The notes under the pieces: generated by a model
Databases searched by the model: none
What the model saw: the letters and a program-made list of their open reading frames with translations, nothing else
Told to the model about the DNA's origin: nothing
Made by a program: the position numbers and the translations under genes
Origin: an uncultured Bacteroidales bacterium
GTDB taxonomy: Bacteria; Bacteroidota; Bacteroidia; Bacteroidales; Bacteroidaceae
DNA: 42,915 nucleotides
Assembly (NCBI GenBank): GCA_945787885.1
Contig: CALZJF010000016.1
Span: forward strand, 1-42,915
Direction: 5' to 3'
Shown: piece by piece, positions 12,404 to 29,364 of the stretch
How positions within the stretch are numbered: position 1 is the first letter of the stretch
Layout: every line of letters starts with the position of its first letter

Positions 12404-12593
12404 GTAGGTAATGAAAATTAGTTTTAGGTTTGAATGCTCTATTTGGATGCAGGTTTTAGTCTTGAAATAAAGGAGCATAGCGTGCTATGTGACTGTTTTC
12501 AAGGCTAAAAGATGCGCCAAAGAGAGCGTTCAAACATACAAACCATAATCATTCCTACTATATACTTACTATAAAATAATTTTTATTACCTAC
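12404..12593 (+). repeat. 190-bp palindromic element A1 (full copy)
   Basis: The ends are inverted repeats: GTAGGTAATGAAAATTA at the left and GTAGGTAATAAAAATTA read from the right end. Inside, GTTTGAATGCTCTATTTGG pairs with a later CCAAAGAGAGCGTTCAAAC, and GCAGGTTTTAGTCTTGAAA pairs imperfectly with TTTTCAAGGCTAAAAGATGC. The centre is CATAGC-GT-GCTATG (12476-12489), so the element can fold as one long hairpin. It begins directly after the stop of the S41 gene and ends two bases before the next ATG. A second copy at 14051-14409 shares almost the whole sequence. Confidence 0.85.
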
Positions 12594-12595
12594 TT

Positions 12596-13906
12596 ATGAA
12601 AATTAGAAAACTATTGCTCCCGCTTGCACTCCTTGCCTGCTGCTCGCCGGCATGGGCACAAAGCCACCTGAAGGCCATACTGAAAGATGGATCTGAACTG
12701 ACGGGTTATATCTCTCGACAGCGTCCCGGCGAAGACTTCACCTTCTCCACGTCGAGAGCCACTATCTTCATGCCTGCCAGCAAGGCGAAGTCCATGCTGG
12801 AGAATGAAGTGAAATACAACTCTCTCTCTGAAGAATGGAAAAAATGGGCCGACGAAAACAATGCCGTCATCGGGGTGGGCGATGCCCGAACCGTCACTCT
12901 CACTGACATTCTCACTGACGATGGCACCATCAGCCGTGTCAGAGTGCTGGAGAAGGGGGCCAAAATAAAATATCTGGAGATAGCTCCCAATTCGTACGCG
13001 CTCAACTGGGACACGGTCACCATATTGCGCTGCGACAAACGCGACCCTCTTCTGCTGACGGGCATCAACCGAAAGTACAGGCTCAAATCGGGTATTGAAT
13101 ACGAGGGAGAGTTCGTGGAGGAAAAGATTGGGGAGACTCTGAGCCTCTACAAGAAGAATGGCATCACGGAAGTCATCAGTACGCTGGATGTCGTCAAAGA
13201 CAGCCGCATGAAGCTCAATCCTGACCAAACGCTCTTCGAGCAGTCTGACCTCATCGACAACGTCACCCTGAAGAATGGCAGCACCTATCGGGGCATTATC
13301 TTCGAGAAAAACTATTTCGGCTATGACGATATGGACAGCGATGAACTGAAAAAGACGGATGCAAGCCTCATCAAACACGATTTCCTGCTGATTCAACTGG
13401 AAGACGAGCAAATCGTCAGCGTCAATCTGCAGGATATCATCGAATATCGCAAGGAGCCTAACCCAAAATACTCTCCGCTCACCGACATCCTGCTCAACGA
13501 GGGCGAATTTGTAGTGAACCGGCAGAAGACTCAACCGCAGCAAGCTACTGAAGAGGCTGGCTTCATCCGCATCTGCGCCGACTCCGTCGCTACCTCCATC
13601 ATTAAAGACACGCCATCCTGCACGGCTACCATTGAAACTCGATTTGCGAATGCCCTCCAGGCTCAACAGTTCAAGCTCGTGAAAGCGAGGAAATATGCCA
13701 CTGACAAGAAGAAAAAGGCCTTCTTCTATGCTTTCACCTACGAAGATTTAGCTAAACTGGCCCTGCTGCAAAAGAAAGATGCTACAAGCATCAACGGCAC
13801 TTGCAAAATGGAGTATAGCTTAGACTCACCGGGACTCTATATTCTCTACAACCCCTCTTCCAAACTTGCCATCCCATTCTGGGTGAAAAACAATTCTGCC
13901 AGATAA
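12596..13906 (+). CDS. Exported protein with three SH3-like/Sm-like strand repeats, function unknown
   Basis: A 436-residue protein with a signal peptide (about 1-22, ending PAWAQ). I do not recognise a named family. Three segments share the pattern L-K-(D/S/N)-G-(S/I)-x-x-x-G-x-(I/F): ILKDGSELTGYIS (about 29-41), RLKSGIEYEGEFV (about 161-173) and TLKNGSTYRGIIF (about 223-235). Each is followed by beta-rich sequence, compatible with small five-stranded barrels. The C-terminal 110 residues form another beta-rich domain. The start codon lies two bases beyond palindromic element A1, so its ribosome-binding region is wholly inside the repeat. It is the last gene before a strong terminator. Confidence 0.75.
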   Translation: MKIRKLLLPLALLACCSPAWAQSHLKAILKDGSELTGYISRQRPGEDFTFSTSRATIFMPASKAKSMLENEVKYNSLSEEWKKWADENNAVIGVGDARTVTLTDILTDDGTISRVRVLEKGAKIKYLEIAPNSYALNWDTVTILRCDKRDPLLLTGINRKYRLKSGIEYEGEFVEEKIGETLSLYKKNGITEVISTLDVVKDSRMKLNPDQTLFEQSDLIDNVTLKNGSTYRGIIFEKNYFGYDDMDSDELKKTDASLIKHDFLLIQLEDEQIVSVNLQDIIEYRKEPNPKYSPLTDILLNEGEFVVNRQKTQPQQATEEAGFIRICADSVATSIIKDTPSCTATIETRFANALQAQQFKLVKARKYATDKKKKAFFYAFTYEDLAKLALLQKKDATSINGTCKMEYSLDSPGLYILYNPSSKLAIPFWVKNNSAR

Positions 13907-13916
13907 GAAACAAGTA

Positions 13917-13983
13917 AGCAGGCAAGTCGATGATGAATATCTCTATGAACGAGTATTCATCATCGGCTTACCTGCTTTTTTTT
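13917..13983 (+). terminator. Rho-independent terminator of the kinase/envelope gene run
   Basis: The 24-base arm at 13917-13940 (AAGCAGGCAAG...TGAATA) pairs with 13954-13977 (TATTCATCATCGG...CTGCTT) around a 13-base loop and is followed by a run of T to 13983. This is one of the clearest intrinsic terminators in the window and marks the end of the + strand run that begins at 462. Confidence 0.93.
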
Positions 13984-14050
13984 ATGAAGCCATCCTCGTC
14001 CGAAGCAGACTACCACGAGCCTCATTGCCCCAATCCCCAAGAGGAATTAA

Positions 14051-14409
14051 GTAAGCTTTGAAAATTAGTTTTATGTTTGAATGCACTGAAATAAAGGGGC
14101 ATAGCCTGCCATGCGACTGTTTTCAAGGCTAAAGAATGCGCCAAAGAGGGCGTTCAAACATGCAAACCATCATCATTCCTACTATATACTTACTATAGGT
14201 AGGTTCAATAAATTAGTTTTCAATGTAAGGCAGTGTTTCTGTTTTACTTGGATGTCTGCACGCCTCTCGTGCCGTAAGTTTTTGTCTTTCATTCAGTCAC
14301 GTAGCCCACTACGCTCCCTCGTGAAAAACAAAAACCTACGGCACGATAGTCGCAAATACATCGCAAGCTAATTGATAGAACCTACCTATAAATGATTTTT
14401 ATTACATAT
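14051..14409 (+). repeat. Palindromic element A2, interrupted by element B1
   Basis: The left part (14051-14196) matches A1 from GAAAATTAGTTTTATGTTTGAATGC through the core GGGGCATAGCCTGCCATG to CCTACTATATACTTACTATA, with a 23-base internal deletion relative to A1. The right tip (about 14388-14409, ending ATTTTTATTACATAT) lies on the far side of the complete 191-bp element B1. The outer ends are more diverged than in A1, consistent with an older copy. Confidence 0.82.
14197..14387 (-). repeat. 191-bp palindromic element B1, nested in A2
   Basis: The left end AGGTAGGTTCAATAAATTAG and the right end read inward (AGGTAGGTTCTATCAATTAG) are 20-base inverted repeats with two differences. The internal arms CGTGCCGTAAGTTTTTGT and ACAAAAACCTACGGCACG also pair, and the centre is CGTAGCCCACTACG (14300-14313). 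Its core is in the opposite orientation to that of A1. The flanks show TATA on both sides, and removing the element with one TATA restores near-identity to A1, which suggests a target duplication. Confidence 0.88.
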
Positions 14410-14996
14410 TTATTACGCGGAAACAGAACTTCCCACTGCACTTCCCGCTGCCCGAAAGCCCGTCGCCACGCCGACGGCTTGCAGCTTTAATTCCTGCCGC
14501 CTGAGCTGCTTGCCGCCCCCGCAGGGCTTCGGCCACCCAGGTGGTCATTTCCCGCCCCGGAAGTGACCATTTTCACCCCCAAATGTCATCATTTTTACCC
14601 CTCAAAATGGTCAGCTCCGGGGCAGAAACGCATGGGCGGCAACGGGAGCGCGATGCGCGCGGAAACAAGGCTCTAAAGACACTGGCGGAGAACACCGTGA
14701 ATCTTGGGAGAAATGTATGCGGCACGCGTTTTGCGAACGGCAGCAGCTGGCGTCTTGCAGTGTATTGCATGTGGAAACAGACAGGGAAATAGCAAAATCT
14801 GGCTGTGAAAAAACAAAACGGGGGGGGGGAATTTTGAGATTTCGCCTGAAAAAAGAAGAAAAACTTGGCGAGAATGCTGATTTTTCGTTCCTTTGTAGCA
14901 AGAAATCACAGACAAGCACATACAGAGGACATGCAGACTTCGCTGCTCCTCCATAACCTTCAAAACTTTCCCTTAGAGATTTCATTTTTTCCCTTT
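14410..14996. other. Gene-free stretch with repeat C1 and a G10 tract
   Basis: No supported gene lies here. It contains repeat C1 (14541-14627) and a run of ten G (14820-14829). Several short open frames overlap on both strands, but none has a recognisable domain, plausible start context or similarity to another part of the window beyond repeat C. The remaining sequence is unassigned. Confidence 0.5.
14541..14627 (+). repeat. Intergenic repeat C, copy 1
   Basis: A block containing CCGGAAGTGACCATTTTCAC, then CATTTTTACCCCTCAAAATG and CTCCGGGGCAGAAAC. The same blocks occur in the same order, reverse-complemented, at 29041-29133. TGGTCATTTCC (14542-14552) and GGAAGTGACCA (14559-14569) can also pair as a short hairpin. 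The unit itself seems to be built from a shorter motif of the form TGACCATTTTCACCCC. Confidence 0.7.
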
Positions 14997-15004
14997 TATA
15001 TTTG
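14997..15004 (+). promoter_or_regulatory. Candidate -7 element TATATTTG
   Basis: TATATTTG fits the Bacteroidota -7 consensus TAnnTTTG. No clear -33 TTTG was found 19-21 bases upstream. Transcription would begin near 15011, immediately before the strong hairpin-terminator at 15015-15069. Confidence 0.5.
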
Positions 15005-15014
15005 TTGTTTCCCT

Positions 15015-15069
15015 CCCCTATAAGTACGCAAGATATGGCTTCTTCTTGCCAGGCTTATAGGGGTTTTTT
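15015..15069 (+). terminator. Strong hairpin with U-run: leader attenuator or small-RNA terminator
   Basis: CCCCTATAAG (15015-15024) pairs perfectly with CTTATAGGGG (15054-15063), and GCAAGA (15028-15033) pairs with TCTTGC inside it. Six T follow (15064-15069). Because a candidate promoter lies only about ten bases upstream, the product could be a free RNA of about 60 nucleotides, or a leader that stops transcription before the gene at 15251. No antiterminator arm or known riboswitch fold was recognised. Confidence 0.75.
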
Positions 15070-15198
15070 GTGCATAAAAGGCAGATTCAGCATCACTATT
15101 CATGCTGCGCGCCATGAATTTTCACAAGGAAAATCCCCTTTTCGTCCGGCTTTTGCGAAAAAAACTCATGGGATGGCTCAAAAAAATGCAGGAGTTTG

Positions 15199-15206
15199 TA
15201 ATTTTG
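15199..15206 (+). promoter_or_regulatory. Candidate -7 element TAATTTTG upstream of the T9SS cargo gene
   Basis: TAATTTTG matches TAnnTTTG and lies 44 bases before the ATG at 15251, a usual distance for a Bacteroidota promoter with a short leader. No good -33 element was seen at the normal spacing. If used, it bypasses the terminator at 15015-15069. Confidence 0.5.
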
Positions 15207-15250
15207 CACGTATTCTAACAATAGAATACCCTGACATTCCACCAACGATT

Positions 15251-17866
15251 ATGCACAAAATTCTGCTTTCTCTCATTCTCTCCATCTTCACCCTCCTCTC
15301 CGTGCAGGCTCAGACTGCCTACGGATTCCTGACCGGAACGGGCAACACGGCCCTGGAGGTGGGCATCTACAGCGTCGATGTCAAGGACGGCCAATCGCTT
15401 TCGCCCATCTACGCCGCCATGTTCGGGCTGTGGGGCGGCGCGGGCAATGCCACGGACTACTATTGTCTGCTCAGCACGGACTACGATGGCTACTCCATGG
15501 CAGGCCTGGCGGCATACAACCTGAAGAGCGGAAGCTGGAATTTCCGCTCGACGCAGATCAACTATGGATGCGCCGACATGACCTACGACATCACGAGCCA
15601 GACGATGTACGGACTGCTGTGCAAGCAGGGGGGCTCGAAAGTGCCGACGGAGCTCGGCACCATTGACCTCGACAACGGCCAGTACAGCCGCATCGCCGTG
15701 CTCGACGATAAGATCGTGGCCCTGGCTGCTGATGCCGACGGTCAGCTCTACGGACTTTCTTCTGCCTCCGACCTCTACAAGATGAACAAGCAGAACGGCG
15801 CGCTGACGCTCGTGGGGCATTTGGACATCGCCACGCTGACGGATCAGGTGCAGTCGATGGAGTTCGACCGCGACAACGGCAGGCTCTTCTGGTCTGGAAT
15901 AGACGGCAACTACGATGCCTTCATAGCGCAGATTGACCCCGACGAGGCGCGCATACTGAGCCGCACTGGCGTGGAGGACAACACGCTGCTGGGCGGACTC
16001 TATATTCCCTATACCACGCAGGGCGGCGGAGGCTCCGAGCCGCAAATTCCCGCTGGCCTCACCTCCCTCTCCGCGCAGAACGTGGGGACGGCGGCACGGC
16101 TGACATGGACGGACGAGAACCCTGCCGGGACGCGCTACCGCATCACGCGGCAGCCCGACGGACAGACGTTTGAGGGCATCGCCGAGAAGACTTTCACCGA
16201 TGAGCCTGACGCGCCTGCCTGCTACTACACCTACAGCGTCTGCGCCTACAACGAGCTGGGCAGCAGCAACGCCTTGACCACGACGCCCGTGCTGGCGGGC
16301 GAAGCGCTGAAAGTGCCTTACGCCATGGACTTCACTAACACGTTCGCCGTGGCGCAATGGCTGGCGGTGGATGCCAATGCCGACGGAGTGGTGTGGAAGT
16401 CGAACGCAGGGAATTTCCAGTATTTCGCCTCCTTCTTCAAGCAGGCGGACGATTGGCTGATGTCCGTGCCTTTCCAGATGAAGAAGGGGCAAAGCTATAA
16501 GCTGACGTACACCGTGGATTGCTCTTCTATACTGGGCTCGGCAGAAAACCTCAGCGTGACGCTGGGCAAGACGCCTGACCCTGCCTCCCATCAGCGCACG
16601 CTCGAAGAACTCAAGGGCTTCACGACGGCGGGAGCTACCGTGCGCACCGTGGAATTTACTGCCGACGAGACTGCCGGCATGCACATCGGATTCCACACCA
16701 CATCGCTCCCCGACCAATTCCAGATTCTCATCTCCGACATTCAGCTGACATCGTACGCCTCCGCCGACCTCTCCGTGGCAACGCCCGCAGGCGACTTCCT
16801 CGCCATCGCTGGCAGGAGCTACGATTGCAGTGTGAGGGTGAAGAATGAAGGGGAGACTGCCATGAGCAACTTCAGCCTGCGGCTTCTGGACGATGCCGGC
16901 AACGCTTGTTGCGAAGCGGCGTTCAGCGAAAGCCTTGCAGCAGGCTCCGCGCACGACTTTGAACTCTCCTTCGTGCCGCAGGCGGAGGGCGTGCTGACAC
17001 TGCACGCAGAGATTGCGGCCGAGGGCGACCAGAATGCTGACAACGACTGCTCTGCCCCCTTCACGCTGGAGGTGCGCCCCGCCACGGAGCAGATCGTGCG
17101 CATCGGCACACAGACGGCTTCGCCATTCCTCATTCCCGTGGCGTTTGAAGGCTACTACTACAGCTTCTCGCAGGCCATCTACCGTCCGGAAGAACTGGCA
17201 TCGGGGGCGGCATGGCTGAAGGAGATTGGCTACAGCTACTACAGCAAGGCGGCATCGCCCATTGAGAACGTGCAGCTCAGACTGGCTCTGGCCAACACGC
17301 CTCAGCAGTCGCCGAAGGAGGGATGGCTGGAAGAGGACGGGCTGACAACGGTGTATGACGCCAAGACTACCTTCGGCGTGGGCGGACATGTGCTGCGGCT
17401 GCCGTTCAATGAGCCTTTCCTCTACGACGGCACGAATCTCTGCGTCATGCTCTCGAAACTGCGCGACGCCACCTTTCAGGAGGTACACTTCGATGCTACG
17501 GACTATCCCGGCGAGGTGCGCACGGCGTTTGGATATAACGACAATGGGGCCGTGGTGCTCAATGAAATCAACGGCTCGTCCATGCTCAACGATATTTACC
17601 TCATTGTCGAGCCCTGCGACGCCGACGGCATCCGCCAACTCGAAGCGCAGGGCACGCTCCGCCTGCTGCCCAACGGGCGCAACTGCTATCGCCTCGCAGG
17701 CGAGCGCGTATGCTCCGTCAGGGTGTTCGCCGCCGATGGCCGCTGCGTAGCAGCGCAGACATCGCCCGAGGCGACGCTTGATTTGCAGGCATTCGCCCCC
17801 GGTGTCTATCTGCTGCAGGCTCAGACGGCAGGCGGCGTGCTGACGGCGAAGGTGCAAGTCAGATAA
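15251..17866 (+). CDS. Large secreted protein with fibronectin-like domain and T9SS sorting domain
   Basis: The ATG at 15251 directly opens a signal peptide (HKILLSLILSIFTLLSVQA), giving 871 residues; the longer frame from 15002 uses a TTG and runs through the terminator, so it is rejected. After a beta-rich domain (about 22-255) with Gly/Tyr repeats comes a fibronectin type III-like segment (about 260-345, with RLTWTDENPAGTRYRITR and YTYSVCAYNELGSSN). Then come a jelly-roll-like domain and a CARDB-like domain (about 515-615). The last 60 residues (SVRVFAADGRCVAA ... APGVYLLQAQTAGG ... KVQVR) fit the type A C-terminal sorting domain of the type IX secretion system. It is therefore likely a cell-surface or secreted adhesin-like protein. 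No catalytic motif was identified. Confidence 0.85.
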   Translation: MHKILLSLILSIFTLLSVQAQTAYGFLTGTGNTALEVGIYSVDVKDGQSLSPIYAAMFGLWGGAGNATDYYCLLSTDYDGYSMAGLAAYNLKSGSWNFRSTQINYGCADMTYDITSQTMYGLLCKQGGSKVPTELGTIDLDNGQYSRIAVLDDKIVALAADADGQLYGLSSASDLYKMNKQNGALTLVGHLDIATLTDQVQSMEFDRDNGRLFWSGIDGNYDAFIAQIDPDEARILSRTGVEDNTLLGGLYIPYTTQGGGGSEPQIPAGLTSLSAQNVGTAARLTWTDENPAGTRYRITRQPDGQTFEGIAEKTFTDEPDAPACYYTYSVCAYNELGSSNALTTTPVLAGEALKVPYAMDFTNTFAVAQWLAVDANADGVVWKSNAGNFQYFASFFKQADDWLMSVPFQMKKGQSYKLTYTVDCSSILGSAENLSVTLGKTPDPASHQRTLEELKGFTTAGATVRTVEFTADETAGMHIGFHTTSLPDQFQILISDIQLTSYASADLSVATPAGDFLAIAGRSYDCSVRVKNEGETAMSNFSLRLLDDAGNACCEAAFSESLAAGSAHDFELSFVPQAEGVLTLHAEIAAEGDQNADNDCSAPFTLEVRPATEQIVRIGTQTASPFLIPVAFEGYYYSFSQAIYRPEELASGAAWLKEIGYSYYSKAASPIENVQLRLALANTPQQSPKEGWLEEDGLTTVYDAKTTFGVGGHVLRLPFNEPFLYDGTNLCVMLSKLRDATFQEVHFDATDYPGEVRTAFGYNDNGAVVLNEINGSSMLNDIYLIVEPCDADGIRQLEAQGTLRLLPNGRNCYRLAGERVCSVRVFAADGRCVAAQTSPEATLDLQAFAPGVYLLQAQTAGGVLTAKVQVR

Positions 17867-17913
17867 GCCTCTCTCATTTCGTCTCATCTTTTTCAACCAC
17901 TCCTATATATATA

Positions 17914-18104
17914 TGGTAGGTTCTGTAAATTAGCCTGCTATGTGTTTGCGACTATCGTGCCGTAGGCTTTTGGTTTTCACGAGGGAGCGTAGCGGGCTAC
18001 GTGGCTGAATGAAAGACAAAAACCTACGGTGCGAGAGGCGTGAAGACATCCAAGCAAGACAGAAACACTGCCTTACATTGAAAACTAATTTATAGAACCT
18101 ACCA
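17914..18104 (+). repeat. 191-bp palindromic element B2
   Basis: The ends TGGTAGGTTCTGTAAATTAG and, read inward from the right, TGGTAGGTTCTATAAATTAG are inverted repeats with one difference in 20. The centre CGTAGCGGGCTACG sits in the same orientation as in A1, and the sequence is the reverse complement of B1 with point differences. It ends 23 bases before the mutS start codon, so it may supply part of the mutS leader. Confidence 0.88.
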
Positions 18105-18127
18105 TAATTCTTATCACCTACTTTTCT

Positions 18128-20752
18128 ATGGCAAAGGAAGAACTCACCCCGATGATGAAGCAGTTCTGCGACATGAAAGCTCAGCATCCTGACGCTGTGC
18201 TGCTATTTCGATGCGGTGACTTCTACGAGACTTACAACGAGGATGCCGTGACGGCATCGCGCGTGCTGGGCATCACGCTGACCCGACGCAACCAGAAAGG
18301 GGCGGCCAAGGACATAGAAATGGCGGGATTCCCCTATCACGCCCTTGAGACGTACCTGCCGCGACTCATACGCTCGGGCTATCGTGTAGCCATCTGCGAC
18401 CAGCTGGAAGACCCGAAGCTCACGAAGAAACTCGTGAAACGCGGTATCACGGAGCTCGTGACGCCTGGCGTAGCCTTGGGCGACAATGTGCTCAACAGCC
18501 GCGAGAACAATTTCCTCGCTGCCGTCTGCTTCGGGCAGGCTGCCGTAGGCATTGCTTTCCTCGACATCTCCACGGGAGAATTTCTGGCGGCGGAGGGCGA
18601 TATCAGCACCATCGACAAGCTCCTGACGGGATTTGCCCCGAAGGAGGTGCTCATCAGCAATGGCGACAAGGGCCGCTTCATGCAGCATTTCAGCAGCAAA
18701 GCCTTTATATTCGAGATGGAAGACTGGGCGTTTGCCGAAACCACTGCGCGCGAACGCCTGAAACGCCAGTTTGACGTCAGGAATCTCAAGGGGTTCGGCA
18801 TCAACCATCTGGGCAGCGCCATTGCCGCCGCTGGTGCCGTGCTGGCATACCTTGACATCACGCAGCACACGCAGACTGCCCACATCACTGCCCTCAAGCG
18901 CATAGAGGAGGAGAAATATGTGAGGCTTGACAAATTCACGACGCGGAATCTCGAACTCGTCAGCACGGGGAACAAGGAGGAGGGCACGACGCTGCTGCAA
19001 GTGCTCGACCGCACGCGAACACCGATGGGGGCGCGGCAGCTGCACAACTGGATTCTCTTCCCGCTGAGGAGTGCGGCGGAGATAAACCAGCGGCTTGACT
19101 GCGTGGAACACTTCTTCCGCCATCCCGAATTTCGGGAGCTCTGCGAGATGGAACTGGGGAAGGTGGGCGACATGGAGCGCGTGGTGTCGAAGGTGGCTAC
19201 GGGCCGCATCACTCCGCGTGAGATGGAGCAGCTGCGCACGGCTCTGGAGACCGTCGTCGTGCTGAAGAATGCCTGCTGCACGGCTGAGCAGGGGAGCATC
19301 CGGCTTATCGGAGAGCAGCTGGACAACTGCACGACGCTGCGGGGGCGCATAGAACGCGAACTCCTGCCCAATCCGCCGATGGCGGTGGCAAAGGGCGGCG
19401 TCATAGCGGCAGGCGTGAATGCCGAGCTCGACGAATACCGCGAGATTCAACGCTCAGGCAAGGACTATCTGCTCCACATACAGCAGCGCGAAGTGGAACG
19501 CACGGGCATAGCGAGCCTGAAGATTGGATACAACAGTGTCTTTGGCTATTACATGGAGGTGCGCAACACTTACCGCGACGCTGTGCCGAAGGAGTGGATT
19601 CGCAAGCAGACGCTCGTCAGCGCCGAACGCTACATCACGCAGGAACTAAAGGAGTATGAGGAGAAAATCATGAGCGCGGAGGAGAAAATCCTGATGCTGG
19701 AGTCGCGCCTCTTTGCCAGTCTGGTGGATGCCGCAGGCGAGTGTATGCGGCAGTTGCAGCAAAACGCCCGCCTGCTTGCTGACCTTGACTGCTACTTCGC
19801 CCTTTCTGCGACGGCTCGCGAGGGAAAATACGTGCGCCCCATCGTGGACGACTCTGACGTCATCGACATCCGCGCCGGACGCCATCCCGTCATCGAAACA
19901 ATGCTGCCCCCGGGGGAAAGCTACGTGCCGAACGATGTGCGATTGGACACCAAGCAGCAGCAAATCATCATCGTCACGGGCCCGAACATGGCGGGAAAAT
20001 CGGCACTGCTACGCCAGACGGCGCTCATCGCCCTTATGGCGCAGATGGGAAGCTTTGTGCCTGCCGAGGCGGCGCATATAGGCATGGTCGATAAAATCTT
20101 CACCCGCGTGGGGGCGAGCGATAACATTTCCATCGGCGAATCTACGTTCATGGTGGAAATGACTGAGGCGGCGAACATCATGAATAACATCACGGAACGC
20201 TCGCTCGTGCTTTTCGATGAATTGGGACGCGGCACCTCCACCTACGACGGCATCTCCATAGCTTGGAGCATTGTAGAACATCTGCACGAGAACCCGAGGG
20301 CGCACGCCCGAACACTCTTCGCCACTCATTACCACGAGCTCAACGAGATGGAACGCCTCTACGCGCGCATCAGGAACTATAACGTCTCCGTGCTGGAGAA
20401 GGATGGGCGCGTGGTGTTTCTGCGCAAACTCATGCCGGGAGGTTCTGAACATTCGTTTGGCATCCATGTGGCGCGGCTGGCGGGCATGCCTCTCTCCATC
20501 GTCAGGCGTGCGGAAGAGGTGCTGCAACAGCTGGAGGCGAACAAGCAGGCAGAGGTGAAGCGGGCGGACACAGAGTCAGCGGGGAAATACAGTGGGGCGA
20601 CTGGCACGCAAATGTCATTCTTCCAGCTCGATGACCCTGTGCTTTCGCAGATTCGCGATGAGATTCTCGGTCTCGACCTCAACAACCTCACGCCGATAGA
20701 ATGCCTGAACAAACTGTCGGAGATACGGAAAATCCTGACGGGAAGGCAGTAA
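18128..20752 (+). CDS. mutS: DNA mismatch repair ATPase MutS
   Basis: Full-length MutS of 874 residues. The mismatch-reading FYE motif is at 32-34 (CGDFYETY). The C-terminal ATPase has Walker A GPNMAGKS (about 618-625; the Ala for Gly is common in this phylum), the signature region SIGESTF, Walker B DELGRGTS (about 697-704) and [10 protein letters not shown]-terminal extension carries the helix-turn-helix dimer region. MutS binds mispairs and recruits MutL. Strand-specificity partners are not encoded nearby. The gene stands between a palindromic repeat and the cytochrome assembly genes, with a 72-base gap downstream. Confidence 0.98.
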
Positions 20753-20824
20753 AAGCCCGCTGCGCCTCTCGCCGTGCGGCAGTTCCATGTAATATTAACA
20801 AGCGGGTTAAACGCAAGAATAAAA

Positions 20825-21637: not shown

Positions 21638-21665
21638 GTAGCCGGCATATAGGCAGGCAGCATTC

Positions 21666-21791
21666 TCCCTGAGGTTTTCACCGCAACCTCTGAGGTTTTC
21701 ACCACAACCTCTGAAGTTTCCGCCACAACCTCTGAAGTTTCCGCCAAAACCTCTGAAGTTTTCACCGCAACCTCTGAAGTTTCCGCCGGCA
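21666..21791 (+). repeat. 21-bp minisatellite, six tandem units
   Basis: Six contiguous units of 21 bases, of the form CCTCTGAAGTTTCCGCCACAA, begin at 21666, 21687, 21708, 21729, 21750 and 21771. Differences between units are few (GAG/GAA, TTC/TCC, ACC/GCC). They lie between resB-like and ccsA genes. The ResB frame, after two TAG codons, stays open across all units, giving a seven-residue repeat of the type TSEV(F/S)(T/A)x, and closes in the TGA that overlaps the ccsA ATG. Confidence 0.93.
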
Positions 21792-21816
21792 GCTCCCCAT
21801 TATTTCCCTTTCGCCC

Positions 21817-22605: not shown

Positions 22606-22662
22606 AAATCTCTGACGAAACCAACTTTTTCACCCATCAACATACCCAAAAGATTGCAGACT

Positions 22663-24057
22663 ATGAAGAAATCAAGCACGATTCTCCTGTCCGGGGCCAT
22701 TGTTCTGGCAGGAGCAGCCATCACCTATCGCATGGTGAATCAGGCTCCCGATGCTTCTCTGCCCGCCAATCAGGCCGTGGCACAGATTCTTGACGATGGC
22801 GGCTGCGTGTTCTGCCACACCGCCAATCCGCAATTACCCTTCTATGCCGACTATCCCGTGGCAAAAATCCTCATCAAGAAAGATGTCGAGGAGGGCTACA
22901 AGGCTTTTGACATCGAGCCGCTGCTGAAGGCTTTGGCAGACGGCACTGCCCCCAACGAGGTAGATTTGGCAAAAGTGGAGAAATGCGTCATGGACGGCAC
23001 CATGCCGCTCATGCAGTATTACCTTGCCCACTGGGGCTCATCGCTTACGAGCGAGAAGCAGGCCATACTGCTCAGCTGGGTGGCAGCAGAGCGCAGCAAC
23101 TTCTTCCCCAATCCCCTCGCTGCCGACCAGTTCAAGAACGAACCCGTGCGCCCCATTCCTGACTCCGTCAGCGTAGATGCCCGAAAGGTGGCTCTTGGCG
23201 AAGCCCTCTATCACGACACGCGTCTGTCGGGCGATGGCACTATCTCCTGCGCCACGTGCCACGGCATCGAGACGGCTGGCGTTGACAACAAGCAGTATTC
23301 CGAGGGCATCGGCGGACAGAAGGGTGGCATCAACGCACCGACGTCCTATAATGCCGTCTTCAATTTCGTACAGTTCTGGGACGGCCGTGCCGAGACGCTC
23401 GCTGCCCAGGCTGGAGGCCCTCCCCTCAATCCCGTAGAGATGGGTTCGGCTTCCTTCGACGAAATTGCCGCACGCCTCTCGGCCGACGCTGCCTTCAAGA
23501 AGGCGTTCTGCGAGGTTTATCCCGAGGGCCTGAACGAAGCCACCATCACCGATGCCATCGCTGAATACGAAAAGACCCTCCTCACTCCCAATTCTCCCTT
23601 CGACCGCTATCTGAAGGGCGAGGACGAAGCCATGACGGCTGAGCAAAAGGAAGGCTATGCCCTCTTCAAGGACTACAAATGCGCCACGTGCCACGCGGGC
23701 GTGAACATGGGCGGCCTCTCCTACGAACTCATGGGACAGCGCGCAGACTACTTCAAGGACCGCGAAGTGAACGTGAAGTCGGGGCTGACGGATGCCGACA
23801 ACGGCCGTTGGGCGCAGACGAACGTAGAGCGCGACCGCTATCGCTTCAAGACTCCGACACTGCGCAACGTGGCCCTCACCTGGCCGTACTATCACGATGG
23901 AAGCGTGCAGACGCTCGACGAGGCAGTCAGCATGATGGCGCGCTACCAGACGGGACGCGAGATGAAGGCGGAAGAAGTGACGAAGGTGGTCAGCTTCCTC
24001 GAAGCTCTCACCGGAGAATATAAGGGCAAACCCCTGACCAACACGAACGCGAAGTAA
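22663..24057 (+). CDS. Tri-haem cytochrome c peroxidase with N-terminal haem-binding domain
   Basis: A 464-residue exported protein; the ATG at 22663 opens an N-terminal hydrophobic anchor (about 5-22). Three CxxCH haem sites are visible: CVFCH (48-52) in an extra N-terminal domain of the haem_bd type (ending near TSEKQAILLSWV), then CATCH at 196-200 and CATCH at 340-344 in the two halves of the CCP/MauG peroxidase fold. The layout and length resemble the tri-haem peroxidase YhjA of E. coli, which takes electrons from quinol, so it probably detoxifies peroxide or uses it as electron acceptor at the inner membrane. Quinol use here is inference. It lies directly behind the cytochrome assembly genes and is followed by a strong terminator. 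Confidence 0.92.
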   Translation: MKKSSTILLSGAIVLAGAAITYRMVNQAPDASLPANQAVAQILDDGGCVFCHTANPQLPFYADYPVAKILIKKDVEEGYKAFDIEPLLKALADGTAPNEVDLAKVEKCVMDGTMPLMQYYLAHWGSSLTSEKQAILLSWVAAERSNFFPNPLAADQFKNEPVRPIPDSVSVDARKVALGEALYHDTRLSGDGTISCATCHGIETAGVDNKQYSEGIGGQKGGINAPTSYNAVFNFVQFWDGRAETLAAQAGGPPLNPVEMGSASFDEIAARLSADAAFKKAFCEVYPEGLNEATITDAIAEYEKTLLTPNSPFDRYLKGEDEAMTAEQKEGYALFKDYKCATCHAGVNMGGLSYELMGQRADYFKDREVNVKSGLTDADNGRWAQTNVERDRYRFKTPTLRNVALTWPYYHDGSVQTLDEAVSMMARYQTGREMKAEEVTKVVSFLEALTGEYKGKPLTNTNAK

Positions 24058-24082
24058 ACTTCTCCCTGCTTCCGCAACGAAA

Positions 24083-24128
24083 AATCCGATGACACCGGCA
24101 GCTTCCGGTGTCATCGGATTTGTTTTTT
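24083..24128 (+). terminator. Rho-independent terminator after the peroxidase gene
   Basis: AATCCGATGACACCGG (24083-24098) pairs perfectly with CCGGTGTCATCGGATT (24105-24120), followed by TGTTTTTT. The A-run on the other side (GAAAAATCC) may let it also serve the convergent flippase gene that ends at 24152. Confidence 0.94.
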
Positions 24129-24151
24129 GAGGACGCTGACGCTCGCGCCAC

Positions 24152-25702
24152 TCAGGAATGGCCCTCCTTCGTCCCTCTTCTTCTGAAGATATTGCGCAGA
24201 CGGCCGGCAAACTGCACCTCGGTCTTCAGAATGCGGATGGAATGGGCAGCGAGCACGAGGGCAACGATGCCGGCAACGCCTATCGAAACCGCCGAACCCT
24301 CGCCCCAAGCGCACGCCCCAATGCCGAGCAGCAGCAGGGCGAACTGCGCCATGCAACGCCGGCACGTGGCGGCAGACATCGAAAAGCCATAGGCGCGGGC
24401 ATACACCGCCCAGACGATGCCCAGATAGACGGCATTGCCCAATGAGAGCGCCAGACCTACGCCCACGACGCCGAGCAGGAGGAAGCCGACGATGGAGAGG
24501 AGGAGGAAGACGATGCTATACGATGTCTCGACCAGCAGATACAGCCGGCTCTCGCTGTGTGCCAGCGAGAGATAGCCGATAGGCACGGAGATGGCCTTGA
24601 GGAACATGTGTGAGGCAGCGGCATAGACCATCGGCACGGCCTCCATGAAGTCGCGGGTATAAAGGAGGGGGATGATGAGGGGAATGGCTATGCAGAACAC
24701 CATGAGGAGGGGTGCCATGAGGAGTGTCAGCACATCGATTTGGCGGTTCACCATGAGGTTCAGCCGTTCGGGCTCGCCCTTCGCCGCCGACAGACGGGGG
24801 AAGTATTCCACATCCATCGAGGTGAAGACGAGGCGGGTATAGGTGACGGTCAGCGTGAGTCCGGCGGCAAAGATGCCCACGTCAGAGAAATTTCCGCAGT
24901 GGACGATGAAGGAGCGCACGAGCAACTCGCAGGCGGCACAAATCATGCCCGTGCAGATATAGCCCACTCCAAGGCGGAGCATCCCTGCGCCGCGACGCAG
25001 GAAGCGCCACGAGCGCAGACTGATGCGATAGGGCATGACCTGATGGGCGGCATAAAGCTGCATGAGGAACATCATGGCAGCAGAAATCACGAGTGCGGGC
25101 ACGATGCCCACCGTGCCGAAATGCCAATAGATGGGGAGCGTGATGAGGATGGCCAGGAAGGCTCCGATGCTTGAGATGATGGCTATGGCCTTCAGCCGCC
25201 GCAGTCCGCGCAGCACGGCCAGTTCGCCGCCCGTCAGCGTCAGCAGGGCCACGAGGGGCGAGAGCGCCATGACCATCGTGGTGTGGCGGCTGGAGCCCAG
25301 CGAGATGGCGGCCCATAGGGGCGAGAGCAGGAAGGTGAGCAGGAAGCCGAGCAATGCTGCCAGCACCACCCACGAGCGCACGAGCTTCACATAATGCACC
25401 AAGGCGGCATTCTCGCGCGGCGGCAATTCCTGCCCATCGCGCAGGCAACCCTTGCCATAGAGTTCGGCGATATGCTGCACGGCACTGAAGGAGAGTCCGA
25501 AATTCGTGCTGCTGCCTATCAAGTCGGCAGTGCGGCTATACACGTCAATCAGGCCGACTCCCCCCACACCGAGGAGAACCGACGTCAGCTTATTGCGCAC
25601 GATGCTGAAAAGCACGTTCAAGCCTTGCACGCCGCCGAAGACGCTGATGTATTTCAGCACGCGGCCCATGCTGGCTTCTGAGGAAGTGGAAGAAGTTGCC
25701 AA
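24152..25702 (-). CDS. Polysaccharide (O-antigen) flippase, MOP superfamily
   Basis: A polytopic protein of 516 residues with about twelve to fourteen hydrophobic segments and the N-terminal signature ISVFGGVQGLN ... NKLTSVLLG typical of Wzx-like translocases in Bacteroidales. Such proteins move undecaprenyl-linked oligosaccharides across the inner membrane. The listed start is a TTG directly after an in-frame stop; an ATG at 25669 gives 505 residues. Family members usually have about ten residues before the first helix, which mildly favours the TTG. No glycosyltransferase genes lie nearby, so it is an isolated flippase gene whose glycan is unknown. Confidence 0.87.
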   Translation of the reverse strand: MATSSTSSEASMGRVLKYISVFGGVQGLNVLFSIVRNKLTSVLLGVGGVGLIDVYSRTADLIGSSTNFGLSFSAVQHIAELYGKGCLRDGQELPPRENAALVHYVKLVRSWVVLAALLGFLLTFLLSPLWAAISLGSSRHTTMVMALSPLVALLTLTGGELAVLRGLRRLKAIAIISSIGAFLAILITLPIYWHFGTVGIVPALVISAAMMFLMQLYAAHQVMPYRISLRSWRFLRRGAGMLRLGVGYICTGMICAACELLVRSFIVHCGNFSDVGIFAAGLTLTVTYTRLVFTSMDVEYFPRLSAAKGEPERLNLMVNRQIDVLTLLMAPLLMVFCIAIPLIIPLLYTRDFMEAVPMVYAAASHMFLKAISVPIGYLSLAHSESRLYLLVETSYSIVFLLLSIVGFLLLGVVGVGLALSLGNAVYLGIVWAVYARAYGFSMSAATCRRCMAQFALLLLGIGACAWGEGSAVSIGVAGIVALVLAAHSIRILKTEVQFAGRLRNIFRRRGTKEGHS

Positions 25703-25884
25703 TTAGATTTTGATAAACGTGGGGATTTTTCCCGTCCCTGACAAGAGAAAAAGAGCAGAGAGGCACTGCACCTCTACGAAAATATTAACGCAAGTTTCCC
25801 TTTTTTATTGCATGAGGAAGGCGGATAAGCAGAGAAAGAAGCGCTCGCTACTGCCTGCCATGCCCCAAACCTCCGACATTTGCA

Positions 25885-25924
25885 CAAAAAAACCGGAGAT
25901 TCTTCACTGAAATCTCCGGATTTC
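25885..25924 (-). terminator. Rho-independent terminator of the caspase/sigma/anti-sigma run
   Basis: Read on the - strand, AATCCGGAGATT pairs with AATCTCCGGTTT around a loop of about nine bases (CCGGAGATT at 25893-25901 and AATCTCCGG at 25911-25919 on the + strand), followed by a run of seven or eight T. It lies about 60 bases after the stop of the anti-sigma-like gene. Confidence 0.9.
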
Positions 25925-25981
25925 TTACCTCAGACGAGGTAAAAACGCTGGCGGCGTGCCCTCGCCTGCACGCCCTCGCCC

Positions 25982-26731
25982 CTACTCCTTCGCCGGCTTC
26001 TGCCGTTTCAGCATACGGAGTATGGAGTCAGCCTTCGAGCTGTAAATGCCCTTTTTGTGGCTAATCTGCTGCGCCAGCCTGATGGCAGCATCGTACTGCC
26101 CCGCCCCGTATAGGGCATACACCTTCAGCCACTGCAAATCCTGCACGCGGATCTCGAGTTCCTCGCGCTCGTAGGCCATCTCCTCGCTCTCTTCCTCATT
26201 CGCAGGCGCTCCTTCGCAGGCCATTCTCCGGAGTTCGATATGGGCTATCCGCTCCTCATTGCTGATGGTCTGCAACGCGTGCTGGCACTCTCCCCCCACG
26301 ATCATCGTCTCCACCTGCGAAAGGTCAGAATCCCCCCGTGCCGCCTCGTCGTCGAGGATGCCGTTTTCGGGAGAGAGCTTGGCGGAGAAGAGTGCGGGAA
26401 ACAGCCAAACGGCTATCAGCATCACGGCAGCCAAGCCAACCACCCAGGGCGTGCGCTGCGGCAGCCACGACATGGCATGGCGCACGCTGGCATACCCTCC
26501 CCGAACGCCCGTGCGACGCTCTTCAGCGTCCCACTTCGCCATACGTTCCTCCAAGGCTGCGCGCTGCGTCACGGCCTCCTTCACGCAATGTGTGAAGGCA
26601 CACTGCCGACGCAGTGTCTCGTCAGCTTTCAGCTCATCCTCAAAGGCTTTCGCCTCGTCGGCATCCATGCGTTGTCGTACGTAGGAGTCTATACGTTCCT
26701 GCCTTTCGGCATCGTGTTTCATGTCATTCAT
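25982..26731 (-). CDS. Anti-sigma-like single-pass membrane protein
   Basis: A 249-residue protein lying 43 bases after the sigma factor gene. The N-terminal 45 residues (ERIDSYVRQRMDADEAKAFEDELKADETLRRQ) have the helical layout common to cytoplasmic ends of anti-sigma factors. A single CAFTHC pair is present, but it lacks the classical HxxxCxxC zinc arrangement. One membrane helix spans about 95-114 (PWVVGLAAVMLIAVWLFPALF). The exported part of about 135 residues has charged helices and a TPR-like segment (WLKVYALYGAGQYDAAIRLAQQI). It probably holds the adjacent sigma factor and senses an envelope signal. This role rests on position and architecture rather than a confirmed family match. Confidence 0.7.
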   Translation of the reverse strand: MNDMKHDAERQERIDSYVRQRMDADEAKAFEDELKADETLRRQCAFTHCVKEAVTQRAALEERMAKWDAEERRTGVRGGYASVRHAMSWLPQRTPWVVGLAAVMLIAVWLFPALFSAKLSPENGILDDEAARGDSDLSQVETMIVGGECQHALQTISNEERIAHIELRRMACEGAPANEEESEEMAYEREELEIRVQDLQWLKVYALYGAGQYDAAIRLAQQISHKKGIYSSKADSILRMLKRQKPAKE

Positions 26732-26774
26732 AAGCAGATAAATGTTGATTCTGAAAGGACTGCGGCCTGGGCCG

Positions 26775-27500
26775 TCAGCGATGGTGGCGCCTGAAGTATT
26801 CCATGTTCGCCATTTCCCTGAGCTTGTCGAAGCATTTCTTCTTCTTCGACTTCAAAGCGTCCTTGCTGGTGTAGGTTTCGAGGCAAAGCATGATTTCATC
26901 GAGCGTCAGGCCTTCATAGTAGTACAGCGTGAGGATTTGCCGGCAGCGTTCGGGCAGCGCGTTCACCATTTGGCGCACGATTTCCCCCGGCTCGGGGTCA
27001 TCCTCATCATAGGGGGCGTCAGAAATTTCGTTGGCCTGCCCGATGCTGCTCAGGGAGAAGAATGACTCGCCGGCAGCAGCAGGCGAAGGGTCGTCAATCG
27101 AGAGGCCGGTGTGCTCCTCGCGCAGGATGACGTGTTTCTGATTTTTCGCCACAGCCATCAGAAACGTCAGCAGGCTGCACGCGAAAGGCTTTTCGTCGGC
27201 TCCTACGATGCTCCCGTCGGCCACTCTGATGTGGCCGGATTCCACCTTCGTCCAGAAGTGGAGGAAGGTCTCGTGAATGAGTTTGTCGCGTTGTTTGTCG
27301 TTGAGTCCGGTGGAGAATTTGTAGCCGTGTCTCAGGAAATAGCGCGTCCAGCGCTTGTAGAACCATCGCTGCAGCTTCGTATCTGCCAGCAGTCCGGCCA
27401 CTACCTCCACGTCCGTATATTCTGGTTCGTCCCGCCCTGAGGGGGAGGAGTCTTGAAAGATTGTTGAAAACATGGTCACAGGTACATCTATATACATCAT
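26775..27500 (-). CDS. Sigma-70-family (ECF-like) sigma factor
   Basis: A 241-residue protein with region 2-like sequence (DKLIHETFLHFWTKV, about 73-87; AVAKNQKHVI, about 115-124). A linker of about 70 acidic residues leads to a region 4 helix-turn-helix (ALPERCRQILTLYYYEGLTLDEI ... SKDALKSKKKKCFDKLREM, about 180-230). The linker is longer than in minimal ECF factors. The listed start is the first of two adjacent ATGs; an alternative ATG at 27473 would remove nine residues. It lies between a caspase-like protease (87 bases upstream) and an anti-sigma-like membrane protein, suggesting one regulatory unit. Confidence 0.85.
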   Translation of the reverse strand: MMYIDVPVTMFSTIFQDSSPSGRDEPEYTDVEVVAGLLADTKLQRWFYKRWTRYFLRHGYKFSTGLNDKQRDKLIHETFLHFWTKVESGHIRVADGSIVGADEKPFACSLLTFLMAVAKNQKHVILREEHTGLSIDDPSPAAAGESFFSLSSIGQANEISDAPYDEDDPEPGEIVRQMVNALPERCRQILTLYYYEGLTLDEIMLCLETYTSKDALKSKKKKCFDKLREMANMEYFRRHHR

Positions 27501-27587
27501 AAACTACACCTGTCTCTCTTCTGCCCTGCCGCCCAGGATGGAGGCTCATGGGCCTTCGGCACGCCGAGAAGAGAAAAAGGAAAAGAA

Positions 27588-28499
27588 CTACTGGCCTTTG
27601 CGCGCGCGCCTGAACACACCGCTGACGCTCATGGTCTGCTTCCGGCCCGTCAGTTCGGGCGTCTGGAGCATTCTGCCCGGATGCTTCTTCATGAACGCCC
27701 TGAGCTCCGCCTCAATCTGCTCGTTCGTCAGCGCCTGATGCTGCTCGAAGAGCTGGCAAAGGGCATAGGAGAGCTTCCCCACCTTCTTGTCCTTGAGCTC
27801 GAAGTTCGTCTGATAGCTCTTGCAGGCACTGATGGTCACCCATTCTTCCTCCTCCTGCCCTGCCGAACCTCTTGGTGCGGCCTTGCCGGGGATGGAGAAA
27901 ACATTGCGTGCGCCTCGCTCCACATCGTCCGCCTCCTCGCCGCAGGGCTCCATGCCGCGCGTGATGCCGCCGCTATGGCAGGCATCGACCACGACGAGGA
28001 GCTTGCCGCGCTTCCCGATGCGCTGGCGGATGGCAGAGAGCAGCACGCCGAGCTCATCGTCCGTCAGGTGGCGCTCGCCCCTGTCGGCACTGCAATATTC
28101 CTTGCAGGCATCATAGGGAATCCAAGCCTCATCGTAACCGTCGGTTTCGTCGCCGTTGAGGTCCGTCATCTGCTGTCCGTGTCCGGAGAAATGCACATAG
28201 ACGACGTCGCCCGCCAGGCAATCGCTCCCCAACGTCTGCAAAGCCCGGACGATGCCCGCCTTCGTGGCCTGCTGATTGACTAAGGTTCGGATGTCAGAGA
28301 AGCCCGAACGCCGGAGCATCTGCTGCACCATAGGCACATCGCGGTCGCCGTTGATTTTGCTCCAAGCCTTGTCCTGCTGCTCGCCGAGGCCAATGACCAA
28401 GGCGCGCCTCGTCAGTCCTGCCGCGGAGAGAGGGCAGAACATCCATCCGATGCAGAGGCACATCAGGAAAGCAAGCCGGAAAACAGGGAAGCGAGTCAT
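27588..28499 (-). CDS. Exported caspase-like (C14, orthocaspase) protease
   Basis: A 303-residue protein with an N-terminal signal peptide (LAFLMCLCIGWMFCPLSAAG). The p20 fold is complete: RALVIGLGEQ (about 32-41), the catalytic histidine in VYVHFSGHGQQ (about 99-109) and the catalytic cysteine in LLVVVDACHSGG (about 166-177). The end of the domain shows TISACKSYQTNFE. Bacterial orthocaspases usually cut after Arg or Lys. The signal peptide puts it in the periplasm or outside. It is the first gene of a three-gene run with a sigma factor and an anti-sigma-like membrane protein, so cleavage of the anti-sigma exported domain is an attractive but untested idea. Confidence 0.9.
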   Translation of the reverse strand: MTRFPVFRLAFLMCLCIGWMFCPLSAAGLTRRALVIGLGEQQDKAWSKINGDRDVPMVQQMLRRSGFSDIRTLVNQQATKAGIVRALQTLGSDCLAGDVVYVHFSGHGQQMTDLNGDETDGYDEAWIPYDACKEYCSADRGERHLTDDELGVLLSAIRQRIGKRGKLLVVVDACHSGGITRGMEPCGEEADDVERGARNVFSIPGKAAPRGSAGQEEEEWVTISACKSYQTNFELKDKKVGKLSYALCQLFEQHQALTNEQIEAELRAFMKKHPGRMLQTPELTGRKQTMSVSGVFRRARKGQ

Positions 28500-28540
28500 G
28501 ACGTTGTATCTTTTCCTATTTCTTAATGTTCGTGAGACAG

Positions 28541-28548
28541 CGAAAGTA
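28541..28548 (-). promoter_or_regulatory. Possible -7 element of the caspase-like gene
   Basis: On the - strand this reads TACTTTCG, one base away from TAnnTTTG, 41 bases before the ATG. No -33 element was found at the usual spacing. This is a weak prediction. Confidence 0.35.
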
Positions 28549-28611
28549 ACCCCTCGACGGTGTGTTTTTTTGCGCTACGAAGGGAAAAAAGTGGATTTCA
28601 GGGGAGATTTA

Positions 28612-28802
28612 AGGTAGATTCTATCAATTAGTTTTCCATGAAAGGCAGTGTTCATGTTTTACTTGGATGTCTTCACGCCTCTCGCACCGTAGGTTTTTGT
28701 CTTTCATTCAGTCACGTAGCCCGCTACGCTCCCTCATGAAAAACAAAAACCTACGGCACGATAGTCGCAAATACATCGCAAGCTAATTGATAGAACCTAC
28801 CT
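28612..28802 (-). repeat. 191-bp palindromic element B3
   Basis: The left end AGGTAGATTCTATCAATTAG and the right end read inward (AGGTAGGTTCTATCAATTAG) differ at one base in 20. The centre CGTAGCCCGCTACG is perfect, and the orientation is that of B1. The length equals those of B1 and B2 exactly. It lies between the divergently placed caspase-like gene and the end of the rod-shape operon. Confidence 0.88.
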
Positions 28803-28804
28803 TC

Positions 28805-28880
28805 AGGTAAATTCTATCAATTAGTTTTCCATGTAAGGCGGTGTTTCGGCCTTACTTGGATGACTTCAGGCTTCTGAGAC
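28805..28880 (-). repeat. Partial palindromic element B4 (left end only)
   Basis: Two bases beyond B3, AGGTAAATTCTATCAATTAG followed by TTTTCCATGTAAGGCGGTG and TTACTTGGATGACTTCAGG repeats the left arm of B3 with about ten differences. It fades out before the internal GTGCCG arm. No core or right end is found. Confidence 0.75.
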
Positions 28881-29364
28881 CACCTGCCTCAAGAGATTTG
28901 CAGGGGCGAGAATGCGCCCACGGCAGGTGTTTCGGCCCATTCTGCCTGAGCCTGCTGCCTGCTGCGCCTGCACTGGGGCTGCAAAGGCGAGGCCGCGAAA
29001 GGCAGCGGGCCATAGGCTGCGCCGCCGGCGACTGCGGATTCCGCCTCGGAGTGACCACTTTGAGGGGCGAAAATGGCCAGAAGGAAGGGCGGAAACGGTC
29101 AGTTTTGGGGGTGAGAATGGCCACTTCCGGAGCAACAGCTCTGACGGGGGGGGCGCGAAGCTCAGGGGGCAGCCCCCGCCGCGCGCTTCATGGCAGTCAG
29201 AAGAACAGTGGATTTCAAGCCATCAGAATGGGGAAACGGGAGGCCGAAGGCTGACTCATCATCACGCATCAGCACATCAGGCAGCACGCGCCACAAGGGG
29301 GAGGGGGCAGACGCATACGCCCCGGCGGACTCCCACTGACAAACCGCCTTCGCCGCCCTGCGCA
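28881..29364. other. Gene-free GC-rich stretch with repeat C2
   Basis: No supported gene. It holds repeat C2 (29041-29133), a run of eight G (29146-29153) and a short hairpin GGGGGCAGCCCCC (about 29164-29176). Overlapping short open frames on both strands show no recognisable domain. No U-run terminator for the - strand operon that ends at 29365 was found. Confidence 0.5.
29041..29133 (-). repeat. Intergenic repeat C, copy 2
   Basis: Reverse-complemented, the block reads CTCCGGAAGTGGCCATTCTC, then GGCCATTTTCGCCCCTCAAA and TGGTCACTCCGAGGCGGAA. It matches repeat C1 at 14541-14627 in order and spacing, except for about 15 extra bases in the middle. A G-tract lies a few bases away, as one also lies downstream of C1. 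Confidence 0.7.

Follow-up and report, generated by a model that had tools for sequence, protein, structure and literature searches.

The question raised by the stretch of DNA analysed here (the window: 42,915 bp, contig CALZJF010000016.1 of assembly GCA_945787885.1, from an uncultured Bacteroidales bacterium) is what a group of palindromic elements of about 190 bp, located between positions 12403 and 28880, might be, and whether the hairpin in their middle has a function of its own. A previous sequence-only reading described them as similar to miniature inverted-repeat transposable elements (MITEs) and added that the long hairpin could also act in RNA. From their anatomy, flanking duplications and nested insertions, the elements are MITEs. 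They probably represent a group of Bacteroidales MITEs that are moved by IS5-family DDE transposases and share a hairpin acting as RNA. In our reading, this superfamily carries a selected RNA (less likely, single-stranded DNA, ssDNA) hairpin and has a putative partner; the preference for RNA stems from the strand-specific fold of the hairpin and from the bias of the insertions towards the sense orientation. Three aspects are new: (i) a hairpin common to several end types; (ii) its strand-specific fold; and (iii) the sense bias between same-strand genes. No description of this core was found in the literature search, which left most subscription journals outside.

Two types of elements, A and B, can be distinguished in the window:

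12403-12594, plus strand: element A1, 192 bp, with ends AGTAGGTAATGAAAATTA...ATTACCTACT and TA at both flanks
12472-12489, plus strand: core of A1, GGAGCATAGCGTGCTATG, 69 nt from the left end
11048-12403 and 12596-13906: open reading frames (ORFs) next to A1, which is sense to both
14050-14196, plus strand: left part of element A2 (14050-14410 overall), with an internal deletion relative to A1
14198-14386, minus strand: element B1, 189 bp, inserted in A2
14300-14317, minus strand: core of B1, with one mismatch to the pattern
14387-14410, plus strand: right remnant of A2 past B1, its first four bases being the TATA duplication (limits set by eye)
17915-18103, plus strand: element B2, 189 bp, which stops 24 bp upstream of the mutS ORF (18128-20752) and is sense to mutS
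17984-18001, plus strand: core of B2, GGAGCGTAGCGGGCTACG
28613-28801, minus strand: element B3, 189 bp, with the imperfect duplication TTAA/TTCA
28715-28732, minus strand: core of B3
28806-28880, strand unassigned: partial element B4, with one end only and an approximate far limit

The copies that had been claimed, i.e., complete A1, B1, B2 and B3, interrupted A2 and partial B4, are all present, and A2 displays both the internal deletion, when compared with A1, and the interruption, as B1 lies inside it. TATA stands on either side of B1 (14194-14197 and 14387-14390), the duplication of B2 is imperfect (ATAT/ATAA) and no core was found in B4 (28806-28880). The core pattern, with up to three mismatches, occurs five times in the window as against 0.19 expected, a number reached by none of 100 shuffles. 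The insertion of A1 is very tight: the stop codon of the upstream ORF (12401-12403) and the ATG of the downstream one (12596) both overlap the TA flanks.

The whole genome (2.70 Mb in 96 contigs, 91% complete) contains 205 matches to the core with up to two mismatches (backward control, 6) and 430 matches to the B end with up to three (control, 0), which bears out both the conserved core and the presence of further copies. The fixed length of about 190 bp and the single type of ends that had been attributed to all the copies need correction: B elements measure 189 bp and A elements 182 or 191-192 bp, and A and B differ in their ends and duplications. Within this genome, A182 and A192 have a common body and different ends. 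The elements are short, non-coding (as judged from the ORF list alone) and provided with paired inverted ends. Within the stretches read, there are 39 B copies of 189 bp; their identity to the consensus has a median of 97.4% (range 41-100%, the low values corresponding, in our reading, to chimeric or out-of-register copies), a high identity which indicates that the amplification of B is recent. Some contigs of this genome (C5, C7) and many of another one (G074) start or stop inside an element end; assemblies, in consequence, break at these elements.

Regarding mobility, the survey of duplications covered 808,638 bp of this genome. In type B, 40 of 60 end pairs are flanked by exact duplications of 4 bp (TATA, TTTA, TAAA and TTAA for the most part), versus a mean of 5.8 and a maximum of 15 in 2000 shuffles of the flanks. 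Type A elements have TA at both flanks in 11 out of 11 cases, TA being a feature that shuffling cannot test, and elements of the GAGCC type show apparent 3-bp duplications (TTA/TAA) at several loci. In addition, short core-less relatives (41-108 bp) possess exact 4-bp duplications in 10 of 15 cases. When the flanks of 49 elements with duplications were joined, seven matched elsewhere in the stretches of this genome through the junction: five are clear nested insertions, namely four of B inside A copies (B1 included) and one of A inside a B end, and two (C8_27901, C5_80342) are not clear. For B1, the joined flanks match except for a gap of one base in an A run; for the A element inside a B end, dropping one TA restores the B sequence, i.e., TA was doubled. 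These nested cases provide unoccupied counterparts of occupied sites, as does an orthologous gap that harbours an element in another genome (G025) and is empty in this one, the two being too diverged for a clean breakpoint; hence, empty sites exist. With these and the many further copies, neither of the outcomes set to refute the sequence-only reading has occurred. The MITE-like nature of the elements is also supported by their high copy number, their patchy distribution and, as described below, the near-identical end that bounds an IS5-family gene.

Across Bacteroidales, elements with differing ends and with duplications of 4, 3 and 2 bp share the hairpin GGAGCRTAGCGGGCTAYGYGACYGA. The following end types, among others, can be differentiated: (i) GGTNGGTTCTAT, with a 4-bp duplication; (ii) GAGCCTGTTTAAATTT, with a 3-bp duplication (TTA/TAA); and (iii) AGTAGGTGTTCAAAAT, with TA. 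One further type (GAGGTTGTTTAAT and similar) has a longer right side. A left offset of 69 nt is found for the core in 52 of the 56 complete core-bearing elements of this genome, the remaining offsets being 70 (one element), 98 (one) and 138 (two, which contain an insertion of the CTTCGCACCTCGGCCAT type). This inserted stretch, CTTCGCACCTCGGCCAT...CTCGGTTTGTCGTCGG, found in L001 and L005 of this genome (upstream of the core at 1501) and in L027 of another one (~816-960), is a second repeat entering these elements. In other genomes, 72 of the 88 cores in stretches L009-L092 were scored (16 lie at an edge), and 31 belong to clear elements, that is, those whose 16 end bases contain no more than two mismatches and whose duplication is at least 3 bp long. 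In these 31, the left offset is 69 in 25, 70 in four, and 68 and 72 in one each, and the right distance varies from 70 to 114. When all 72 are considered, the best offset is 69 in 31, 70 in eight and between 55 and 90 in the rest; the spread offsets are those of elements with mutated, long or not-found ends.

A scan of genome contigs with the exact core returned at least 84 stretches; among the matches listed, most are titled Prevotella, Bacteroides, Bacteroidales, Muribaculaceae, Mediterranea or Marseilla, and two metagenome-assembled genomes are titled Lachnospiraceae, an unverified label. Copies are present in Prevotella sp. P5-108 and Marseilla massiliensis. The exact core is present in 13 of 101 genomes, this one included (12 of the 100 others), all of one genus; an extended pattern with three mismatches gave no match in 394 other genomes drawn evenly from the phylum. 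The covariance-model search suggested by the sequence-only reading, with 18 candidates scored per genome, detected the core in at least seven of 294 other genomes of the order. Seven viral contigs contain the core, of which three (L243, L247, L248) look like elements; the matches in the other four (L244-L246, L249) have no ends and were taken as chance, as were five 17-nt phage matches. One B and one GAGCC element gave no match in plasmids; a 37-nt core query gave six weak plasmid records (E ~5), of which a place in Prevotella nigrescens is supported by the model.

As to the fold, the tip of the hairpin consists of a 5-bp stem, CRTAG/CTAYG, closed by the loop CGGG (also CGTG and CGAG). It is followed by a G.Y pair, a tandem G.A/A.G and two standard pairs, and then, in most families, by a second G.A tandem. 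Variants of this arrangement include the GAGCC type, with one standard pair fewer on each side and both tandems kept; G004, with the inner tandem swapped for standard pairs (GGTGC/GTACC); G718, with G-C instead of C-G at the base of the stem; and further tips with paired changes such as GATAG-CGGG-CTATC. Covariation was examined in a gapless alignment of 33 of 37 representatives, the other four (L026, L027, L047, L058; shifted or rearranged) having been left out by eye. In these 33 sequences, 85% of the cells are paired as against 65% in shuffles, two-sided changes amount to 164 cells as against 65 (standard deviation 6), and pairing falls to 40-42% when the partner is slid by one base. Five pairs are invariant, an invariance due in part to the fact that most sequences were fetched by the core itself. 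No known RNA family was recognised: Rfam gave no match in the window at the gathering threshold, and Rfam E-value searches with two elements gave nine and five matches, none at the cut-off, that were dismissed as chance. The hammerhead-like motif CUGAUGAG occurs in some families and is missing in others, and this candidate was dropped.

The fold of the strand that bears GGAG is the selected one. The two arms were compared, with symmetric alignment and excluding core and tandems, in 31 of 49 clusters; the other 18 have no right end with up to four mismatches in 14 bases, and truncated or rearranged copies, as well as at least two probable chance matches, are among the 49. On the GGAG strand, G.U mismatches number 99 versus 25 A.C (composition-corrected p 9e-7, an optimistic value given that the families share ancestry), and the same asymmetry is seen for G.A versus C.T (116 and 14), G.G versus C.C (45 and 2) and A.A versus T.T (23 and 7). 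The GGAG strand is the more stable one in all 31 families, with median energies of -74.6 versus -56.5 kcal/mol. Purine mismatches (near positions -41, -30, -20 and -5) and bulges (near -35 and -24) form clusters with an apparent spacing of about one helical turn.

A second line of evidence is the orientation of the elements relative to genes. With simple ORF calling, 57 of 68 cores of this genome were placed (three overlap ORFs and eight have no neighbours), as were 63 of 116 from elsewhere (28 lie at an edge, 13 overlap ORFs, 10 are duplicates and two lack a flank). Between same-strand genes, the ratio of sense to antisense elements is 28:10 in this genome and 29:13 elsewhere, i.e., 57:23 together (p 0.00018); under other overlap rules, 30 of 40 elements of this genome are sense. 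By gap length, the ratio is 12:2 below 300 bp, 7:2 at 300-450 bp and 9:6 above; by copy age, it is 13:4 in the youngest copies, 8:2 in the next group and 7:4 in the oldest. Within same-strand gaps, 11 of 18 elements at positive GC skew and 11 of 22 at negative skew are on the plus strand, so there is no dependence on skew; for this genome, GC skew is the sole yardstick by which orientation is said to follow genes and not replication. The strand-specific mismatches, the stability of one strand, the covariation and the sense bias together strengthen the earlier suggestion that the hairpin acts in RNA, which is compatible with a MITE; they could, less probably, reflect a function in ssDNA.

Concerning the transposase, two contigs (L241, L242) came up when viral contigs were scanned for the B end; they share a near-identical stretch and differ in their flanks beyond it. 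This stretch holds the end of a transposase gene of the IS5 family (204 codons for L241, 114 for L242; PF01609; NF033581 with 157 bits, cut-off 140), bounded downstream by GGTAGGTTCTATAAATTCG, in which 18 of 19 bases are as in the B end. The near-identity of this boundary to the B end points to an IS5-family transposase, acting in trans, as the likely mover; type B, in particular, very probably uses one. Relatives of the viral protein occur in 11 of 120 genomes, a set that includes none of the 12 others bearing the exact core (possibly, not all 12 were searched). A complete relative in G040 (L250) measures 1289 bp and has ends GGTGAGTTCTAAAAAT/GGGGACTTCTAAAAAT, similar to B, and a TTAA duplication. 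PF01609 was detected in 31 of 61 genomes, and in none of the 30 loci checked do paired element ends surround the transposase gene, an element being near the gene in some (L163, L177, L180). Neither in these 30 loci nor in the viral contigs was a partner transposase found for the non-B end types, and the viral contigs contain no exact A or GAGCC end. Likewise, the reading of 12 stretches of G004 and 8 of G062 around single ends gave truncated or other elements and lone ends, not an autonomous transposon, and no Y1_Tnp match over the cut-off was found in the genome of the window, where one broken fragment reaches 21.4 bits.

From these observations, the following mechanism may be proposed. IS5-family DDE transposases would recognise the ends and most likely move the MITEs in trans. 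Members that differ in ends and duplication size have one internal module in common, namely a long, imperfect hairpin whose tip is conserved. In read-through transcripts, the GGAG strand would act as RNA; as the element would fold into one closed hairpin, its sense insertion between operon genes might be tolerated. The tip, in turn, could bind a host factor common to the order: its constancy over different end types points to a factor other than the transposase. The data show the anatomy, the duplications, the nested insertion, the strand-specific fold, the covariation, the fixed left offset and the orientation bias; the transposases of the non-B types, the preference for RNA over ssDNA, the host factor and the role in tolerance are what we infer. 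Resident copies drift, as shown below, while the constraint between lineages is strong, which suggests that the fold decides which lineages keep amplifying, via a lower cost for the host or a better propagation. A more elaborate version can be put forward only tentatively: an ancient RNA chassis, its left arm fixed at 69 nt and its tip invariant, might have repeatedly gained new ends and, hence, different IS5-type transposases (4-, 3- and 2-bp duplications), and might have been kept because the RNA binds a Bacteroidales-wide host factor, easing operon insertions or its own spread.

Several results weigh against the RNA-bearing MITE reading. The pairs with any two-sided change are 16 versus 14.7 in shuffles, a value reached in 110 of 500, and the shared ancestry of the families was mentioned above. 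In recent resident B copies, one-sided changes comprise 44 G.U and 35 A.C; such near-equality implies little constraint on resident copies. As for the mover, the genome of the window (91% complete) contains neither a PF01609 transposase nor relatives of the viral IS5 protein, and only one end of the viral insertion sequence (IS) copies was seen, the other lying beyond the contig. The core (up to two mismatches in 12 bases) has no match in the IS stretches examined, and clean duplications also flank core-less derivatives of 61-101 bp, which means that some transpositions do without the core. With DNA energy parameters, just as with RNA ones, the GGAG strand is the favoured one in all 31 families, so that the fold alone does not separate RNA from ssDNA; the presence of the bias in the youngest copies makes an insertion bias possible; and, among the 20 elements outside same-strand gaps, 11 of the 15 in positive-skew regions are on the minus strand, possibly a replication signal. 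The last three points favour an explanation in which the ssDNA fold is the selected one: the GGAG strand would fold during replication or transposition and aid movement or amplification, the direction of transcription being secondary. Weak constraint in residents together with strong constraint between lineages is also what would be expected if the fold mattered for propagation. Nevertheless, we consider this explanation unlikely, if worth keeping in mind, inasmuch as orientation between same-strand genes follows the genes (30 of 40) and not GC skew, the bias is strongest in short gaps, no Y1/HUH transposase exceeds the cut-off in this genome, and ends and duplications fit a DDE transposase.

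The elements could also be ordinary IS5-derived MITEs with a functionless middle, where the core reflects inheritance and the palindrome is a by-product of MITE formation. Ends, duplications and copy number would be enough for mobility, exact duplications accompany 10 of the 15 short core-less derivatives and resident copies drift nearly neutrally; but neutral inheritance explains neither the constancy of tip and offset across 31 two-ended families with divergent arms and ends, nor the strand asymmetry, nor the tip variants with paired changes. Part of the constancy of the tip is due to ascertainment, members having been fetched by the core, and the flanking GAR and YGACYGA lie outside the fetching pattern. 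This explanation is disfavoured and appears rather improbable. Finally, the elements could be similar to repetitive extragenic palindromes (REPs) moved by a REP-associated tyrosine (Y1) transposase (RAYT), with GGAG as the tag beside a short hairpin. GGAG is a tag of REPs, and GGAG followed by a small hairpin is reminiscent of tagged REPs. The tags named in PMC3733652 are GTAG and CGTC. Long inverted ends, duplications of 4, 3 or 2 bp and a unit of ~190 bp are, however, at odds with a tagged palindrome of 20-40 bp, no Y1_Tnp exceeds the cut-off, and no RAYT gene flanked by cores was seen in the genome of the window, where RAYTs were sought, all of which makes this explanation highly improbable.

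When compared with known systems, the RNA-bearing MITE superfamily has counterparts of different kinds. The Correia/NEMIS elements of Neisseria belong to other organisms and have other ends. They are MITE-like: their ends are inverted, and transcripts can be cut by RNase III at their conserved core (PMC2649163, PMC10969869). They may be regarded as relatives in function; the passages of PMC10969869 do not mention a single tip hairpin across differing ends. The MITEs of Porphyromonas gingivalis (BrickBuilt, 464/PgRS, MITE293, MITE700) are also from Bacteroidales, and their ends resemble IS elements of that species; in contrast, these ends are of the AAGACCTTTGCA type, BrickBuilt and 464/PgRS have internal tandem repeats, and no such core appears in the available passages of PMC4596501. 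PINSR of Prevotella intermedia and P. nigrescens is similar in length (188 bp), copy number (177 and 184) and intergenic location, but, according to its authors, it lacks terminal inverted repeats and does not qualify as a MITE (PMC4755523); this comparison is based on published descriptions. A P. nigrescens replicon contains, at 10 places, a ~239-bp repeat without the core, which is a mere candidate for PINSR, and one stretch that fits the present family (model 37.2 bits, left offset 68). IS5-family IS elements (NF033581, IS5_4) match type B in end sequence and in the TTAA-type 4-bp duplication; by contrast, they carry a transposase gene, and the copies examined lack the core.

Other features of the window include neighbouring genes (mutS and a gene for a protein with a type IX secretion system (T9SS) tail); a 21-bp tandem repeat of the CTGAGGTTTTCACCGCAACCT type with ~7 imperfect copies (21648-21808); two related inverted stretches, GAAGTGACCATTTTCACCCC-like, which are another small repeat (14549-14628 and 29084-29133); and an ORF on the minus strand (27588-28499) that weakly matches the EACC1-associated caspase model (28 bits as against a cut-off of 140, thus far under it). 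Elsewhere in this genome (G000:C2, ~63550-64500), there is a tandem array with a unit of ~105 bp (GTGAACTGCTGTTGCGAAGTATTCGTG...), absent from the relative L053. In three genomes (L061, L210 and C8 ~51668 of this genome), differently ended elements adjoin, according to BLAST, the same conserved gene, perhaps a recurrent target.

MITEs are usually viewed as relics of one parent, defined by their ends. In the superfamily described here, it is the middle that is conserved and the ends that change. The hairpin would be a case of selection on the RNA (or the single strand) of a mobile element, and it may offer a lead to a binding factor in gut Bacteroidales.

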